In this document: positions 6,369 to 64,000 of the stretch, in pieces
Numbering within the stretch: the first letter of the stretch is position 1
Layout of the letters: each line of letters begins with the position of its first letter
NCBI RefSeq assembly: GCF_026130175.1
Contig: NZ_JAIGNI010000032.1
Coordinates: forward strand, 1 to 64,000
Reading direction: 5' to 3'
Source: Lyngbya sp. CCAP 1446/10
GTDB taxonomy: Bacteria > Cyanobacteriota > Cyanobacteriia > Cyanobacteriales > Microcoleaceae
Length of the DNA stretch: 64,000 nt
Translations under genes and position numbers: made by a program
Notes under the pieces: generated by a model
What the model was told of the DNA's origin: nothing
Seen by the model: only the letters and a program-made list of their open reading frames with translations
Database searches by the model: none

Positions 6369-7163
6369 TCAGTTCAATGCCCTTGATACTTTCGCGAGAC
6401 AAGCCTCTAAAGGGATGCTAGCGGGGACGGGCAAAGTGATGTCCTCATAAGTCTCTGGGATGTCCTCATAAGTCTCTGGGAGGTCGCTTGCTGATGTCTC
6501 GTTTTGACTTTGGGGCTTGGCCTGAAAAAGTGTCGGTTCCAGTTTCACTGGTACAGGGACGATCGCCCGCAAATCTTCATAGCTGTATCGCTTGCCGGAG
6601 TTGCTGATAATTAGGGATTGCTTACCGCTTGAGTGCCATGCACCGGCAAGTCGCATTACTCGGCTGGGATTCTTTAAAGCTTGATCGCCATCCGCAAACT
6701 CTAGCAAGTCGGTTTGGAGCGATCGCCATTTTTCAACCTCAACAAACTCATCAAATACCCAGTACGAGTGGATTGACTTGCCCCCGGTGTCAATTTGCAG
6801 TGTCGGTTCTGGCAATCCCAAGCCTTTCCACAGTTCGAGCTGAGTTGCTTGATCTAAATTATCGTGTTCGTAGAATATGGCTCTCGTTTGCTGGACATCT
6901 TTATCTGTGTGTCCGCCGCCCTTGACTACGAAGTAGGTTCCCCGCCCTTCGGTTTGAAACTGACCGGCAATCTCGACCAATTCGTGAATGTTGGTAGCTT
7001 CTGCTTTCCTGCCCTTATCCTTGGACTTGCGGGGGTCGGAACTGGGGAAAAATGCCCGAAGGTAAACCTTGAAGCCCTCTTGATACCCCAATGCTGCTAG
7101 TTGTTGCTGTACTTGCGATGGGTCAATGGGTTTGGCTGTATTTGAAAATTGCTGTAAGTTCAT
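6369..7163 (-). pseudogene. N-terminal part of plasmid DNA primase-like protein, truncated by IS607
   Basis: The 264 residues show an archaeo-eukaryotic-primase-like N-terminus common on cyanobacterial plasmids: KVYLRAFFPSSDPRKSKDKG, TYFVVKGGGHTDKDVQ, RAIFYEHDNLDQATQ, TLQIDTGGKSIHSYWVFD and NPSRVMRLAGAWHSSGK. The frame stops three codons after SIPLEACLAKVSRAL, exactly where relatives continue into the PriCT/helicase part, and the IS607 element begins there. A likely C-terminal piece sits at 1482-1961. The start ATG at 7163 follows GAGAGG. Residues 225-245 carry a direct repeat (PETYEDIPETYEDI). The gene cannot make a full-length product. Confidence 0.75.
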
Positions 7164-7249
7164 AGATGCCTCTCGCTACTCATAGCGCTGCGTGCTGGTT
7201 TTCTTTACAAAAACCCGCTATATGTAGAAGAGACGGCTCTGCCCGGTAA

Positions 7250-7456
7250 CTACCGTTGAATTACAAAGGTGTAAATTTTGCGGTAATGGCAAATATGAAC
7301 TATGATGAATTTAAACTTTTTGAAATTTGTTTGTCTGCCGTCTCTTCTAAAGACTGCGGACTCTTTTTTTTGTGTGTCTGGTCTGGTCTCGGGCTGCGAG
7401 GCTCTTCGGTAGTTTTGAAGAGCTGCTTCAACTTCATGGTTCGATAGATCCTCCAA
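7250..7456 (-). CDS. Small ORF of unknown function
   Basis: A 68-residue frame with only a TTG start directly follows the preceding open frame. It begins MEDLSNHEVEAALQNYRRAS and becomes basic and unremarkable. A competing frame with an ATG at 7437 (45 residues, MKLKQLFKTTEEPRSPRPDQ, ending at 7300) covers the same DNA. I cannot tell which, if either, is translated. Confidence 0.25.
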   Translation of the reverse strand: MEDLSNHEVEAALQNYRRASQPETRPDTQKKESAVFRRDGRQTNFKKFKFIIVHICHYRKIYTFVIQR

Positions 7457-7458
7457 TT

Positions 7459-7839
7459 CTAAACCTGAACGTATTGCTTAGATTGCTCGCTGGCAAGGAA
7501 TTTCTGATAAGCTTCCCGATCGCCGCCGCATGAATCAACGGAAACCTTGCTGACAATCTCGTAAGTCATTGCCTCAGCTTGCTCTGCTGTCAGAGGCTGG
7601 CGATCGCAGTAAGCAATTTGCACGTCCCGAAATTCTGGTAAGTCATCAACTTCTGACAAATCAGCCTCGTAGCGAAATACCTTAACTACTACCCAATCGG
7701 AGGGCGTGACAAGGTAAGTCTGCCACGGGCTCTCTTTTTTGACGTGGTAGGCGAGTCGCTCGCCAAGTTTTACCTTGCGCTTGAGGAGAGGGCGAGAATC
7801 CTGAGACAGTTCGAGCAGCCGGGATTGAAAGCCTTTATC
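7459..7839 (-). pseudogene. Open frame without a start codon, probable 5'-truncated gene
   Basis: The frame is open for 126 codons and reads like real protein in its lower two thirds (SPWQTYLVTPSDWVVVKVFR, then SEVDDLPEFRDVQIAYCDRQ). The first available start is a TTG at 7659, well inside this coherent stretch. The upper end abuts and slightly overlaps the end of the Uma2 gene. I infer that the 5' part was lost when the neighbouring DNA was rearranged. The family is not recognised; the product is acidic. Confidence 0.4.
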
Positions 7840-8479
7840 TCAGAGCGCTTGGAGGCAACCCAGCTCGAAAAATTACCTCAGCAGTCAAGATCAACTCTGG
7901 AAACGCCAGCGACTCTACCTGGTCATCGCCCCGAAACTGCTTAACCTGGTACTCCCCATCTATTAACTGGCAAACCGAAAGGGTCGGTTGTTTGGGATTG
8001 CCGATAAATTTGCGACCGCCCAAACCGAGATAGTCCACAATCCAGTATTCGGGGATGCCCATCTCTTCATAGTCGGAAGCTTTGAAAAAATAATCATCCC
8101 GCCAGTTGGTGCTGACGACTTCTACAGCCAGCCGCACCGAGGAGCCCATCGTGATGATAGATTCCCTATCCCAGCGCGGTTCGCCCGCTATAGCCGCTTG
8201 GTCTAAGACAATCACATCGGGCTGATAACCAGCCTCATCACGAGTGGGTTTAAGCAGGCAGTCACCGGGGATAAAGCAAGGCAATTTCAGTCGCCTGATT
8301 TCTGCGCTAATTTCGTCGCGGGTAAAACCCGTAACAACGGAATGGCGACCTGTTCCTAAAGGCATTTCGACAATTACTCCGTTGTGTAGTTCGTAGCGTT
8401 TGACCGAGTTCTCTGGATACCAGACTGCGAACTCGTCAAACGTGACTGGTTTGGTTCTGGTTTCGGTTTGGGTTTGCAT
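7835..8479 (-). CDS. Uma2-family (DUF820) restriction-endonuclease-like protein
   Basis: This 214-residue protein has the PD-(D/E)XK fold signature typical of the hugely expanded cyanobacterial Uma2 family: TFDEFAVWYPENSVKRYEL, PDVIVLDQ, LAVEVVSTNWRDDYFFKASDYEEMG, then EYWIVDYLG. The expected acidic and lysine residues (PDV, EV, K) are present. The family is thought to be nucleases, some tied to mobile DNA; the role of individual members is unknown. The ATG at 8479 has an AGGAG site seven bases upstream. The last 10 codons (PPSALR end) overlap another open frame and may be a replaced tail. Confidence 0.85.
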   Translation of the reverse strand: MQTQTETRTKPVTFDEFAVWYPENSVKRYELHNGVIVEMPLGTGRHSVVTGFTRDEISAEIRRLKLPCFIPGDCLLKPTRDEAGYQPDVIVLDQAAIAGEPRWDRESIITMGSSVRLAVEVVSTNWRDDYFFKASDYEEMGIPEYWIVDYLGLGGRKFIGNPKQPTLSVCQLIDGEYQVKQFRGDDQVESLAFPELILTAEVIFRAGLPPSALR

Positions 8480-8521
8480 GATTTCTCCTGTGTTTGGTTG
8501 CCTTGTCCCGGCTTGAGCAAC

Positions 8522-8656
8522 TTACCGCGCCCCTGGAAGTCCCCACTGGTCGCGTTCCATCCTAATCTCATCCTTCACCGAAAACGCCTCGCTAATATCG
8601 CGTTGGCTGAGCAGTTGGTTGCGATCAAGTTCGGTGCGTGATGCCAAAAGCTTCAT
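8522..8656 (-). CDS. Small ORF, 44 residues, unknown
   Basis: The minus strand encodes MKLLASRTELDRNQLLSQRD followed by ISEAFSVKDEIRMERDQWGL and a PGAR end. It lies 43 bases upstream of the Uma2 start. Composition is charged and protein-like, and the frame is open about 15 codons further upstream without another good start. It may be a small gene or the tail of a lost one. Confidence 0.3.
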   Translation of the reverse strand: MKLLASRTELDRNQLLSQRDISEAFSVKDEIRMERDQWGLPGAR

Positions 8657-8704
8657 CAAACCGCCGCTCCAAGGTTTCAGAGCGGGAGATGGCAAGAGTC
8701 TCAG

Positions 8705-8852
8705 CTAGGAGTGTCGATCGCCTTTATCGCGGTAGGAGTCACAAAAATGGTGTAGCGCTATGAGTTTTCGCCCCAAACACTGCTCCATTTTACTAATTGC
8801 TGCTTTGGACTTCCCACTATCGGCGATCGTGGTGCATCGGGAGTGTTAAAAG
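8705..8852 (-). pseudogene. Coding remnant of unknown family
   Basis: A stop-free stretch reads TTIADSGKSKAAISKMEQCL then GRKLIALHHFCDSYRDKGD. This is coherent enough to suggest former coding, with an internal ATG at MEQCLGRK. No family is recognised. It fills most of the gap between the small ORF at 8522 and the gene at 8970. Confidence 0.25.
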
Positions 8853-8936
8853 TGCTGTGTTAGCGGACAACACAGAGTTTTGACGGTAGATTCAATGATA
8901 TCATCGTGTAAATCCAAACGATTATATCTCCCTAGT

Positions 8937-8957
8937 TTACCATAATATATAAGGTAA
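8937..8957. promoter_or_regulatory. Operator-like palindrome TTACC-N11-GGTAA upstream of 8970 gene
   Basis: TTACC (8937-8941) and GGTAA (8953-8957) are separated by 11 A/T-rich bases containing an ATAATATAT stretch that could serve as a -10 element. The start codon follows 13 bases later. The same geometry with ATACC/GGTAT recurs just downstream of the gene at 9304-9324, which suggests one regulator acting on both. Confidence 0.4.
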
Positions 8958-8969
8958 GCGAGGGAGTTT

Positions 8970-9299
8970 ATGTTTGCAGCTAAAAGATGTTATATCGAGA
9001 AATTGGTAAAGCCTGTGAAAGCCCGTGAATTCTGTAGACTTTGGTTCGATGCCGATGCCCAGATGGAGTCTGCGAGGGGCTATAGGGCAGAATGCGTTCG
9101 TTTGTTGAGTCGCATTTTGTCGGTTCAAACGGAAACTATCTCTAGCAAATGGGGAAGCGGCATTGATTTCGAGAAAATGCCAGAACACTACGAGCGGACT
9201 CTCGCTTATGCTAATTCGCTCCGTTCCATCCTCGATGCCGCCGGTAACAATGAAGAGCTTGCCAGCATCGTGACAGAACGCCTCAAACAATCGCGTTAA
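8970..9299 (+). CDS. Conserved-looking hypothetical protein, 109 residues
   Basis: An ATG at 8970 follows a GAGGGAG ribosome-binding site with good spacing. The product is all-helical in appearance (KLVKPVKAREFCRLWFDADA, GYRAECVRLLSRILSV, YERTLAYANSLRSILDAAG). No catalytic motif, membrane segment or known domain is evident. Operator-like palindromes flank it on both sides. I do not recognise the family. Confidence 0.7.
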   Translation: MFAAKRCYIEKLVKPVKAREFCRLWFDADAQMESARGYRAECVRLLSRILSVQTETISSKWGSGIDFEKMPEHYERTLAYANSLRSILDAAGNNEELASIVTERLKQSR

Positions 9300-60184: not shown

Positions 60185-61063
60185 ATGAGCTTAATCCCTC
60201 CTTCCAAGCAAAAGTTAGAAATTGAAAATATTATCGCCCCTCGAACTGCTCTTGAGTTTACAGCATTTGTGGGACTAACAGTGTTAATTAGTTTGCTGAC
60301 TGCGGGCAATTTATTCGGAGTTGGTGGTGTAGCGGCTGTTGGTTTTATCTGGTGGCGAGTCGATCGCCAGCGTGAAAAAAAACGTATTCAAACCTTATAT
60401 ACCCAAAATTTAGGTATTATCGTGGGAAAAGAACCCCCCACCGGGGTTAGAGGTTTAATCTTGTTACTCAGTCCCTATTCGCCGCGCAAACAAGAACTAA
60501 AAAATGAAGGTACGATCGCCCCGCTGATTGAATTGGTCATCAACACTGAGATAGAGAAACTCACTCAAGATGATTTCGATAGACTTGACTTGTTTAATTC
60601 TAATCTTTCCCCCCAAATCAAAGCTGTAGAATTTCATGCAAGCCAAGGAAACTTGCGAGATATTTGGATGATTAGTACAAAAAGTTACGAGACAAAGGAA
60701 GGTAAAAAAGTTAAAGGTTCCGAAGATTCAGCCCAAATTCTCAGTCAATACCTACGGTTTCAATACGGACAAAGCTTTGACATTAACTGGCAAGGCTTAT
60801 CAGTCCTAGATTACGATTATCAAGGATTGTGGAGGTTAGCAGAGCAAATCTTCCGCGAGTCCGCTTATAAAGATGACGTGATAGTTGCCGATATTACTGG
60901 CGGGACAAAAATGATGAGCGTGGCTTTGTCTATGGCTTGCATTCCCCCAAAACGCCGAATGCAATATATGGATTCGCAGCGGGATTGGCAAGGAAATCCC
61001 TTGTCCGTTGGGGATATGCAGCCGATCGTAATTGATGTCGATCAGATTCTTTATTCTAGTTAA
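60185..61063 (+). CDS. Membrane-anchored CARF-like CRISPR accessory protein (Cam1-like layout)
   Basis: The 292 residues begin with a short cytosolic piece and two close hydrophobic stretches (about 22-58, FVGLTVLISLLTAGNLFGVG GVAAVGFIWW). A basic connector (RVDRQREKKR) follows, then a Rossmann-like domain with RGLILLLSPYSPRK and VIVADITGGTKMMSVALSMA (about 230-249). The D-x-TGGTK-M/MS motif is the hallmark of CARF domains that bind cyclic oligoadenylate made by type III CRISPR complexes. A CARF domain with N-terminal membrane helices resembles Cam1, a membrane-depolarising effector. RT-cas1-cas2 lie downstream. No nuclease domain is visible. Confidence 0.75.
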   Translation: MSLIPPSKQKLEIENIIAPRTALEFTAFVGLTVLISLLTAGNLFGVGGVAAVGFIWWRVDRQREKKRIQTLYTQNLGIIVGKEPPTGVRGLILLLSPYSPRKQELKNEGTIAPLIELVINTEIEKLTQDDFDRLDLFNSNLSPQIKAVEFHASQGNLRDIWMISTKSYETKEGKKVKGSEDSAQILSQYLRFQYGQSFDINWQGLSVLDYDYQGLWRLAEQIFRESAYKDDVIVADITGGTKMMSVALSMACIPPKRRMQYMDSQRDWQGNPLSVGDMQPIVIDVDQILYSS

Positions 61064-61723: not shown

Positions 61724-61796
61724 CATAATTGCGCTTAGTCTCTCTGAGTTGATGATCAGTGAGAGGTTATTAAGTCAAGGAAATAGCGCAATTATG
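61724..61796 (+). promoter_or_regulatory. Hairpin covering the RT start codon
   Basis: CATAATTGCGC (61724-61734) pairs perfectly with GCGCAATTATG (61786-61796), which contains the ATG at 61794. Inside, CTCTCTGA can pair with TCAGTGAGAG. Such a stem would hide the start codon and its neighbourhood and could lower or regulate RT production. Confidence 0.5.
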
Positions 61797-62792
61797 TCCA
61801 TGCAATATGCTGCTGATTTTGACCAGAACCGAGAAGTTTTAGCAACATCCCTCGTTGAGGAATTTCTCAGGGTAGAAAACTTTCAGAGAGCTTGGGAAAA
61901 GGTAGCAGCTAATCAAGGCGCTGCTGGCATTGATGCAGAAACCATTGATGATTTTCGTCAAAATTTACAAACAAATCTCTTCCAGTTGAGAAAATCGGTT
62001 GCTAATAGCAGCTATCAAGCGCATCCCTGTAAACAAGTTTTAATCCCTAAAAATCAAGGCAGTTGGCGAGAATTAAAAATCCCAGCAGTCAGAGATAGAA
62101 TTGTTCAGCAAGCTTTATTGAATGTTCTCGCCCCAATTTGGGAAACTAAGTTTTCTTGCTGTAGTTTTGCCTATCGCCCCAACCTGTCTTACTTGGATGC
62201 TGTGGAAGCAGTGGCTCGCTGGCGGGACTTGGGTTATAGTTGGGTACTAGATGCAGATATCGCTCAGTATTTTGATAATATTGACCACCAGCGGTTGTTA
62301 AGAGAGGTTAGGAAGCAAATCGACAATCCAGGCATTCTCTGCTTGATTAAATCTTGGATTGCGGTGGGGTTATTAACCCAAGACGGGGTTATTAGAACTG
62401 AGAAAGGGATTCCTCAAGGCTCTGTTATTTCGCCGATGCTTGCTAACATTTACCTGGATGATTTCGACAAATTTTTCTCGAATTCTGGTCTTCAGTTAGT
62501 CCGCTACGCCGATGATTTTGTGGTACTAGCTCGTACTAAAGAGCAAATTATTGGCGCTTACTCTCAGGTGGAACGATTGCTCAATTCTATGGGGTTGGCG
62601 CTGCATCCTGATAAAACTAGAATTACTAATTTTGACCGAGGATTTCGATTTTTAGGTCACGGTTTTTTGGAAAGTGCTATCTTTCCTCTGGAATCGCCTC
62701 AGAATCTGGTGCAGTTAGGAGCCAAACAGAGTAAAGCTAGTAAAAAAAAAGGCTCGCGCTCCCCATACAAGTCAAAGAGAAAGCAGAGGTAA
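61794..62792 (+). CDS. CRISPR-associated reverse transcriptase
   Basis: From ATG 61794 the product has 332 residues; an ATG at 61752 would add 14. Reverse transcriptase motifs are complete: IPKNQGSWRELKIPAVRDRI, SWVLDADIAQYFDNIDHQRL with the first catalytic Asp, RTEKGIPQGSVISPMLANIY, and LVRYADDFVVLARTK with the YADD pair. It resembles group II intron-derived RTs tied to type III CRISPR adaptation, which acquire spacers from RNA. It ends shortly after the thumb region; 14 codons before the stop lies a run of nine A's at which the downstream Cas1 frame opens (see finding). Confidence 0.9.
   Translation: MSMQYAADFDQNREVLATSLVEEFLRVENFQRAWEKVAANQGAAGIDAETIDDFRQNLQTNLFQLRKSVANSSYQAHPCKQVLIPKNQGSWRELKIPAVRDRIVQQALLNVLAPIWETKFSCCSFAYRPNLSYLDAVEAVARWRDLGYSWVLDADIAQYFDNIDHQRLLREVRKQIDNPGILCLIKSWIAVGLLTQDGVIRTEKGIPQGSVISPMLANIYLDDFDKFFSNSGLQLVRYADDFVVLARTKEQIIGAYSQVERLLNSMGLALHPDKTRITNFDRGFRFLGHGFLESAIFPLESPQNLVQLGAKQSKASKKKGSRSPYKSKRKQR
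62741..62752 (+). promoter_or_regulatory. A9 slippery run at the RT / Cas1 frame transition
   Basis: Nine A's occupy 62742-62750, read AAA AAA AAA GGC in the RT frame. A -1 shift, or one extra A in the transcript, reads on as AGG CTC GCG ... without a stop all the way through Cas1. The Cas1 frame is closed immediately upstream by TAA at 62741-62743. Confidence 0.6.
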
Positions 62793-62884
62793 TCCCAATA
62801 TCCTCTTTGAACCCTCCAGTTTGTGTAGAAAATATTGAATCTGAAAGCGAGCAAGCTCCTTCGAGAAATACTTGGAACAAAGAC

Positions 62885-63889
62885 ATGGCAACTATTTATT
62901 TGATTGAGCAAGGAACAGCGGTATATAAGGAAAATTTACGGTTTGTGATTTGGGTGGACGATGAGCCGAGAAAGGAAATTCCGATTCGCGAGGTTGAGCG
63001 AATTTTGGTATTTGGAAATATCCAAGTTTCGACTCAGGCTATTCATGCTTGCCTGCAAGAGCAAATTTTGATATTGTTTTTGAATTTATCCGGTTACTAT
63101 AAGGGTCATCTATGGAATTGGGAATCCAGCCATCAGGCTAATGAATTGATGCAAATTGAGAAGCGCCAAGATGCCGCGTTTCAGTTACAAATCTCTCAAG
63201 CTATTGTGCGTGGAAAGTTGCTGAATTCTAAGCAGTTATTATTAAGGCTAAATCGGAAGCGAAAAGTAGCGGAAGTTGCCAGAGCGATCGCAGGTATTAA
63301 TTCTGATATTGAGGCTCTGGCTACCGTTGATAATGTGGATAGTTTGCGCGGTTATGAAGGCATTGGTGCAGCGCGATATTTCCCCGCGTTAGGCAAGTTG
63401 ATTGCGAATCCGAGCTTTAGCTTTTCTCTGCGACATCGCCAACCTCCTACCGATCCGGTCAATTCTTTATTAAGTTTTGGCTACACTCTGTTATTTAATA
63501 ATGTTCTAAGCCTGATAGTGGCTGAGGGGCTATCTCCTTATTTTGCTAACTTCCACTATGGAGAAGACAAAAAGCCTTATCTGGCCTTTGACCTGATGGA
63601 GGAATTTCGCTCACCTATTGTTGATAGTTTTGTGTTGAAATTAATCAATAATTCGATTTTCAAGCCTACTGATTTTGAAAGGATTGTCAGTACGGGAGGA
63701 GTTTATTTAAGTTATGGGGCGCGGCGTGAGTTTATCGAGCAGTTTGAAAGGCGGATGAACGAACAGCTTTCTCATCCTGATTTACAATCTCAGGTTTCTT
63801 ATCGAGAGGCAATTCAGTTGCAGGTTCGGCGCTATAAGCGTAGTTTGGTGCATGGCATTATATATGAGCCTTTTTTGAGAACAACGTAA
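62885..63889 (+). CDS. cas1: CRISPR integrase Cas1
   Basis: From the ATG at 62885 (MATIYLIEQGTAVYKENLRF) Cas1 has 334 residues. The catalytic set is visible: Glu in LIVAEGLSPYF, His in NFHYGEDKKPYLAFD and Asp in EFRSPIVDSFV. The ribosome-binding site is weak. The same frame is open upstream for 45 more codons back to the A9 run, encoding LNPPVCVENIESESEQAPSR, which suggests a linker from a former or programmed RT-Cas1 fusion. It integrates new spacers with Cas2. Confidence 0.93.
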   Translation: MATIYLIEQGTAVYKENLRFVIWVDDEPRKEIPIREVERILVFGNIQVSTQAIHACLQEQILILFLNLSGYYKGHLWNWESSHQANELMQIEKRQDAAFQLQISQAIVRGKLLNSKQLLLRLNRKRKVAEVARAIAGINSDIEALATVDNVDSLRGYEGIGAARYFPALGKLIANPSFSFSLRHRQPPTDPVNSLLSFGYTLLFNNVLSLIVAEGLSPYFANFHYGEDKKPYLAFDLMEEFRSPIVDSFVLKLINNSIFKPTDFERIVSTGGVYLSYGARREFIEQFERRMNEQLSHPDLQSQVSYREAIQLQVRRYKRSLVHGIIYEPFLRTT

Positions 63890-63905: not shown

Positions 63906-64000
63906 GTGGTTGTTGTAATGTATGACATTCCTGATGACAAAAGGCGTACCAAACTTTCTAATTTTCTGGAGGGCTACGGGCGCAGAATTCAGTGGTCAGT
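63906..64000 (+). CDS. cas2: Cas2 (5' end, runs off the window)
   Basis: The last 95 bases encode VVVVMYDIPDDKRRTKLSNF then LEGYGRRIQWSV, the conserved Cas2 N-terminus with the YDIPDD strand. I use the GTG at 63906; an ATG four codons later would remove the first beta strand. It follows cas1 by 16 bases and partners Cas1 in spacer acquisition. Confidence 0.92.
   Translation, partial: MVVVMYDIPDDKRRTKLSNFLEGYGRRIQWS

Follow-up and report, generated by a model that had tools for sequence, protein, structure and literature searches.

A conserved A9/A10 run at the RT-Cas1 junction of cyanobacterial CRISPR loci as a probable site of transcriptional slippage

The closest described systems are the type III RT-Cas1 fusions (Silas 2017; Toro 2017, clades 3 and 5). 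The locus of Lyngbya sp. CCAP 1446/10 described here resembles them in having RT upstream of Cas1, followed by a probable cas2, a CRISPR array, and type III-B-like (Cmr) genes, and differs from them in that RT and Cas1 occupy separate frames that meet at a conserved A9/A10 run. In the part of Toro 2017 covered, two cyanobacterial clades are distinguished, one all fused (15/15) and the other mixed, with three RT and five RT-Cas1 among eight. Since clade 3 of the cyanobacteria contains fusions only and clade 5 is mixed, the locus probably belongs to RT-CRISPR clade 5. Its RT and Cas1 parts also both match, by sequence, the chain of Cas6-RT-Cas1 (PDB 7kft), which is, however, a constitutive single-frame fusion with Cas6. 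According to the covered part of PMC8102632, the Cas6-RT-Cas1-Cas2 complex contains four RT-Cas1 chains and carries the Cas6-RT lobe on a flexible linker, two of the four lobes being visible.

Expression through slippage is known from other genes, for which we draw on the covered part of PMC1088944. In Thermus thermophilus dnaX, an A9 run causes transcriptional slippage of about 50%, and the two products have a common N-terminus as they would here, but slippage shortens the dnaX product whereas at the present locus it would lengthen RT into a fusion, as in Shigella mxiE. In mxiE, one inserted nucleotide likewise joins two overlapping ORFs, although the run consists of U and the product is a transcription activator, an unrelated protein. 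IS elements contain a conserved 9-A pattern in overlapping ORFs that leads to a longer product (Baranov 2005, PMC1088944), but these are genes of mobile elements and not of CRISPR adaptation. The words “frameshift” and “slippage” are absent from the main texts of Silas 2017 and Toro 2017, as is “CRISPR” from the main text of GeneTack 2013 and from the first 300,000 of the 475,107 characters of the Atkins 2016 review. The frameshifts mentioned in the covered part of PMC6753606 are mutations in E. rectale and Drancourtella. In the part of the literature covered, we found no published description of a slip-joined RT/Cas1.

The window, i.e., the whole stretch of 64,000 nucleotides analyzed, contains an RT ORF at 61794..62792 (+, taken as the 0 frame), recognized by ORF reading and a domain match (Pfam RVT_1, E 5.4e-39). 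It is group II intron RT-like and contains YADD, which we take to be the catalytic motif; the mechanical ORF list offers TTG 61749 as an alternative start. Near its end lies an A9 run (62742..62750, +) with T on the 5′ and G on the 3′ side, read in the RT frame as AGT AAA AAA AAA GGC, and 13 sense codons later the RT is closed by TAA at 62790-62792. The resulting C-terminal tail is basic (GSRSPYKSKRKQR-stop; 62751..62792, +) and overlaps the linker frame. Cas1 starts from a conserved ATG (MATIYL...; 62886..63889, +) and was identified from its ORF and domain matches (Cas_Cas1, E 6.9e-87; TIGR00287 also above its cut-off). It is in the −1 register of RT, so that the two do not share a continuous frame in the window. 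The Cas1 frame is closed by a TAA at the 5′ edge of the run (62741..62743, +) and is open from the run through a linker of about 45 codons (62744..62885, +), past ATG 62886, to 63889. The initial annotation had described the run, the TAA overlapping its start, and the open stretch before the Cas1 ATG, and all three stand on direct reading.

The forward strand of this genome contains 85 A9 windows in 6.75 Mb, which gives a chance expectation of about 0.003 per 250 nt. In the 42 loci interpreted below as slip loci, no A9+ run occurs elsewhere in 77,984 nt of RT and cas1 coding sequence.

Judging from the arrangement of the frames and their conservation described below, the RT/Cas1 locus is probably a programmed frameshift gene in which RNA polymerase would slip on A9, leaving one extra A in part of the mRNA. 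The unslipped mRNA (A9) would encode free RT with a short basic tail, and the slipped mRNA (A10) a single RT-linker-Cas1 protein comparable to the fusions that type III systems encode in one frame. Slippage would thereby set the ratio of RT to RT-Cas1, or the dose of Cas1, with Cas1 tethered to RT, and the basic tail of free RT could bind nucleic acid.

A probable cas2 starts at 63906..64000 (+), reading VVVVMYDIPDDKRR, and continues beyond the window; cas2 is annotated at the equivalent place in four relatives (L096-L099). On the contig beyond the window, the probable cas2 is followed by a CRISPR array of about 26 repeats. Among eight downstream proteins scanned, two had no match; Cmr4 (E 1.8e-18) and Cmr3 (E 7.5e-4) were matched below their curated cut-offs, and TIGR02221 and TIGR03985 above theirs. 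Because the array and these genes follow, the locus appears to be the adaptation module of a type III-B system. Two genes upstream of RT, an ORF at 60185-61063 weakly matches the Card1 CARF domain (E 4e-4, short of the Pfam cut-off), and an HD-domain ORF (HD_4) lies between it and RT.

Relatives were collected with a Cas1-plus-linker search of the family (61 genomes, 48 with any Cas1 match at E 1e-20), the order (388 genomes, 73 matching at 1e-62), the phylum (386 genomes, 10 matching at 1e-80), and four further family sets at 1e-90 (26/217, 4/20, 2/14, and 2/10), these genome sets overlapping. A single scan of genome contigs with RT gave six loci, and the best 4 of 39 records from a plasmid search were read. 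RT, Cas1, and the run could be placed in 66 rows, which represent 65 distinct loci after L096 (identical to L110) was dropped. L033, L034, and L035 duplicate L004, L011, and L059, and L010, L074/L078, and L075, without an RT match, fall outside this set.

Cas1 is in the −1 register of RT in 44 of the 65 distinct loci, and 42 of these 44 have A9 (34 loci) or A10 (8 loci) at the junction together with an open linker. As the 42 were chosen for A9 or more, the fair denominator is the 44 distinct −1-register loci. The other two are L037, which is incomplete and has no run, and L123 (G790:C4), which lies at a contig edge and reads T-T-A8 at the run position, with a TAA in the RT frame there. Run length differs between species. 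The slip loci cover ten coded cyanobacterial families (f1, f4, f7, f9, f14, f15, f19, f25, f32, and f33), of which f33 is presumably Nostocaceae since the cas1 of L110 is identical to that of Nostoc sp. N6. They are also found on plasmids of Microcystis NIES-2481 and Gloeothece PCC 7424, which are without a family code and may belong to some of the same ten families. The loci share ancestry, and counts across them are thus not independent.

The search for the same run in relatives, as the initial annotation had suggested, also bears on its concern that the homopolymer was miscalled. Homopolymers are error-prone, and the A8 runs of L040 and L119 may be examples, but the run recurs across assemblies made independently, among them plasmids deposited as complete, and a sequencing or assembly error is an extremely improbable account of it. 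L040 and L119 belong to the four loci in the +1 register (L006, L011, L040, and L119), three of which have an open linker (L040 and L119 with A8, L011 with A9); these three either require a different slip or reflect indels or errors. The genomes of L040 and L119 are assembled in nine contigs and one contig, respectively, and their A8 runs are real indels or homopolymer errors. L011 is from a MAG that carries further frameshifts. In the fourth, L006, the linker frame is no longer open and the run, preceded by G, is A8; this locus looks like a true fission.

RT and Cas1 share one frame in 17 of the 65 distinct rows. Nine of these fusions have no run of 8 or more, and eight do (three A10, four A9, and one A8); as eight run-bearing loci are already fused in frame, slippage is not indispensable. 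The fused relatives that the initial annotation proposed to look for were found next to a split locus: the A10 fusions L007 and L065 are close relatives of L008, which is A9 and split, and a single A thus separates the two states. Such neighbors could also arise if replication slippage in the run toggled between split and fused genotypes. This phase variation would fit the adjoining positions of L007, L065, and L008 on the Cas1 tree, the seven changes needed there for fused loci with a run, and the A8 of L040 and L119. Free switching would, however, spread the registers, and 42 of the 53 run-bearing rows share one (binomial 9e-12, with relatedness ignored), while the run stays at 9 or 10 in −1-register rows. 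We regard phase variation as improbable.

In the Cas1 tree (65 rows, 62 from this group and 3 outgroup, with L037, L123, and L011 left out), the 53 run-bearing rows (A8 to A10) form a single clade with support 100/98, with the nine in-frame fusions that have no run placed outside it. Run-bearing in-frame fusions are scattered over the tree and require seven changes. Most simply, this topology means that the run and the −1 register were acquired a single time, in an ancestral RT-Cas1 fusion, and the run-bearing in-frame fusions are best explained by later reversion. A recent fission, which the initial annotation had offered as an alternative, is opposed by this nesting of the run-bearing clade in run-less fusions. 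As a general account it was rejected on the nested position and on linkers that are open and selected.

The linker has the properties of a translated protein. Between the RT stop and the Cas1 ATG, the Cas1 frame of the 42 loci contains no stop in 2,265 codons, and the other two frames of the same stretch contain 103 and 163; in 20 representatives (805 linker codons) the counts are 0, 33, and 62. The open linkers extend 28-126 codons upstream of the Cas1 ATG. ATG is absent from 33 of the 42 and ATG, GTG, and TTG are all absent from 16, so that, unless a rare start codon is used, translation could reach these 16 linkers only through the run. In the window, the linker may be entered through slippage or, for part of its length, from an internal TTG at 62807.

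Protein-level selection on the linker, for which the initial annotation had called, is present in the Cas1 frame. Eight close pairs (16 of the 42 loci, 490 aligned codons) gave a pN/pS of 0.47 in this frame and of 0.79 and 1.63 in the others. When the same substitutions were placed randomly, the mean pN/pS was 0.75, only 1 of 400 placements was as low as observed, and stops numbered 9.1 on average with none of the 400 stop-free. The constraint is real but loose, and weaker than that on Cas1, since dN/dS is 0.42 in the linker and 0.11 in Cas1 and substitutions favor third codon positions only slightly in the linker (74/53/85 at positions one to three, compared with 149/65/506 in Cas1). In all 42 linkers a Trp lies four residues ahead of the Cas1 Met, and 26 have an IAxLHQPFLAE-type motif (at least LH[QK]P). 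The motif, as IAxLHQP(F/Y)LAE, is kept in otherwise variable linkers, e.g., L041-L044 and L100-L106. In L102, L103, L113, and L116 the linker includes short peptides repeated in tandem (SPRSHALHD-like, SPEKCHSERSEE), which keep the Cas1 frame open.

The tail that unslipped RT would carry also differs from chance. After the run, the RT frame of the 42 loci encodes 183 K/R and 8 D/E in 533 residues; the same stretch encodes 108 K/R and 32 D/E in 492 residues in the +1 frame and 67 K/R and 100 D/E in 495 residues in the linker frame. The null model fixed the linker protein and redrew synonymous codons, treated as independent, in 500 simulations. K+R made up 0.343 of the RT tail against 0.252 simulated, with 0/500 simulations as high, and mean tail length was 12.7 codons against 21.1 simulated, the shortest simulated mean being 14.1. 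In sets of 25 and 20 representatives, no simulation of 500 in either set was as basic, and 0 and 3 of 500 were as short. As the linker code alone would leave the RT tail longer and less basic, both products, the unslipped RT with its tail and the fusion with its linker, seem to be under selection.

These properties bear on a simple fission, in which RT and Cas1 are two proteins, Cas1 begins at the conserved ATG or inside the linker, and the run is incidental. The Cas1 ATG is conserved in 42/42 loci, three named split records annotate RT and cas1 separately, some start codon is present in 26 of the 42 linkers (in the window, the TTG at 62807), and secondary fission is invoked for some splits in the covered part of Silas 2017. 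A fission would, however, leave unexplained why linkers of 28-126 codons stay open upstream of the ATG and selected in the Cas1 frame, also where no ATG, GTG, or TTG is available, and the sole apparent true fission, L006, has lost its open linker. Just 2 of the 42 slip loci, compared with 8 of the 17 fused loci, have an SD core of at least 4 ahead of the Cas1 ATG. An independent Cas1 start with a good SD is not supported by these upstream sequences but is conceivable, as the first ATG of RT itself is without an SD core in 35 of 41. Simple fission is a poor candidate; some additional free Cas1 may be made from the conserved ATG beside a slip-made fusion.

The same fusion could be made from unslipped mRNA by programmed −1 ribosomal frameshifting on A_AAA_AAA(G). 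In the RT frame, the A9/A10 runs include a −1 heptamer, A_AAA_AAA in the window and A_AAA_AAG in three A10 loci (L047, L050, and L052), and the covered part of PMC8254509 infers that slippage on the 11-A run of plastid atpB occurs at the ribosome and not at the polymerase. Downstream RNA structure was not detected, with a mean z of −0.10 and 0/42 windows below −2 (nested structures only), and an SD-like motif was found upstream of the run in only 3 of the 42 loci. A ribosomal slippery heptamer requires just 7 A, yet among the 44 distinct −1-register loci no intact one has fewer than 9. The codon phase of the run varies among A10 loci, with one, three, and four loci in the three phases.

The base 5′ of A9 is T in all 34 A9 slip loci (18/18 and 13/13 in representatives), compared with a T frequency of 41% at comparable third positions, and has no obvious role in a heptamer slip. 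The base 5′ of A10 is C (four loci), G (two), or T (two). With T before A9, or with A10 itself, all 42 sites have at least ten consecutive weak A/T pairs, close to the 9-10 bp of the RNA-DNA hybrid (PMC5009743, part covered), and our preferred reading is that the conserved T marks the edge of a weak hybrid. The −1-frame TAA was rejected as the cause of the conserved T, as upstream ribosomes should not be in that frame and seven of the eight A10 loci have no such TAA.

Sampled A9+ runs were inside ORFs of at least 120 aa at 8 of 40 sites, compared with 559 of 712 control positions from the same stretches of the genome that the window comes from, a comparison that is not matched for AT-rich intergenic DNA. 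The 40 sites are the first ones away from contig ends among the first hundred of 180 windows (overlaps counted separately). Avoidance of A9 in coding regions is expected where A9 slips (PMC1088944, part covered). Given the missing stimulatory structure, the at least ten weak pairs at 42/42 sites, and the rarity of A9 in sampled ORFs, the evidence favors transcriptional over ribosomal slippage; from these sequence features we hold transcriptional slippage on the run to be reasonably likely and ribosomal frameshifting to be rather unlikely, if the most serious of the alternatives.

The run and its register, the conservation of both, and signs that either tail is selected can be read from the sequences; we infer that slippage takes place in cells, that it does so at the level of transcription, and that it sets the ratio of RT to RT-Cas1 or the dose of Cas1. 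Taken together, there is a somewhat better than even case for a CRISPR adaptation enzyme made by programmed transcriptional slippage, which would set the ratio of free RT to RT-Cas1. Its site would have arisen once in an ancestral fusion and been held at ten weak pairs (TA9 or A10) in at least ten families of cyanobacteria, and some of the RT/cas1 pairs that databases list as “split” would be one gene. If so, slippage doses spacer acquisition by RT-linked systems, RT works by itself as well as attached to the integrase, and RT and cas1 that are annotated as two genes, or explained as fissions, have to be re-read as single recoded genes. Transcriptional slippage predicts that a synonymous change in the run abolishes the fusion and keeps free RT, and that a fixed extra A does the reverse.

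A run is not a general feature of classical RT-Cas1 fusions, an idea that was rejected since among 13 distinct distant same-frame loci, some with a partial or interrupted RT, only L092 has one. L092 (G062:C29, reverse strand, ~3069) is a distant in-frame RT-Cas1 fusion with A10 at the junction, where slippage would end the protein shortly after RT, by analogy with Thermus dnaX.

L065 is the second RT-Cas1 copy of its genome (G041), and its RT is broken just after the YADD codons by an insert of 2,380 nt (about 6886-9265, −). A group II intron domain is matched at the end of the insert (Rfam RF00029, 51.3 bits), and the insert encodes its own RT, i.e., a group II intron lies within a CRISPR RT gene.
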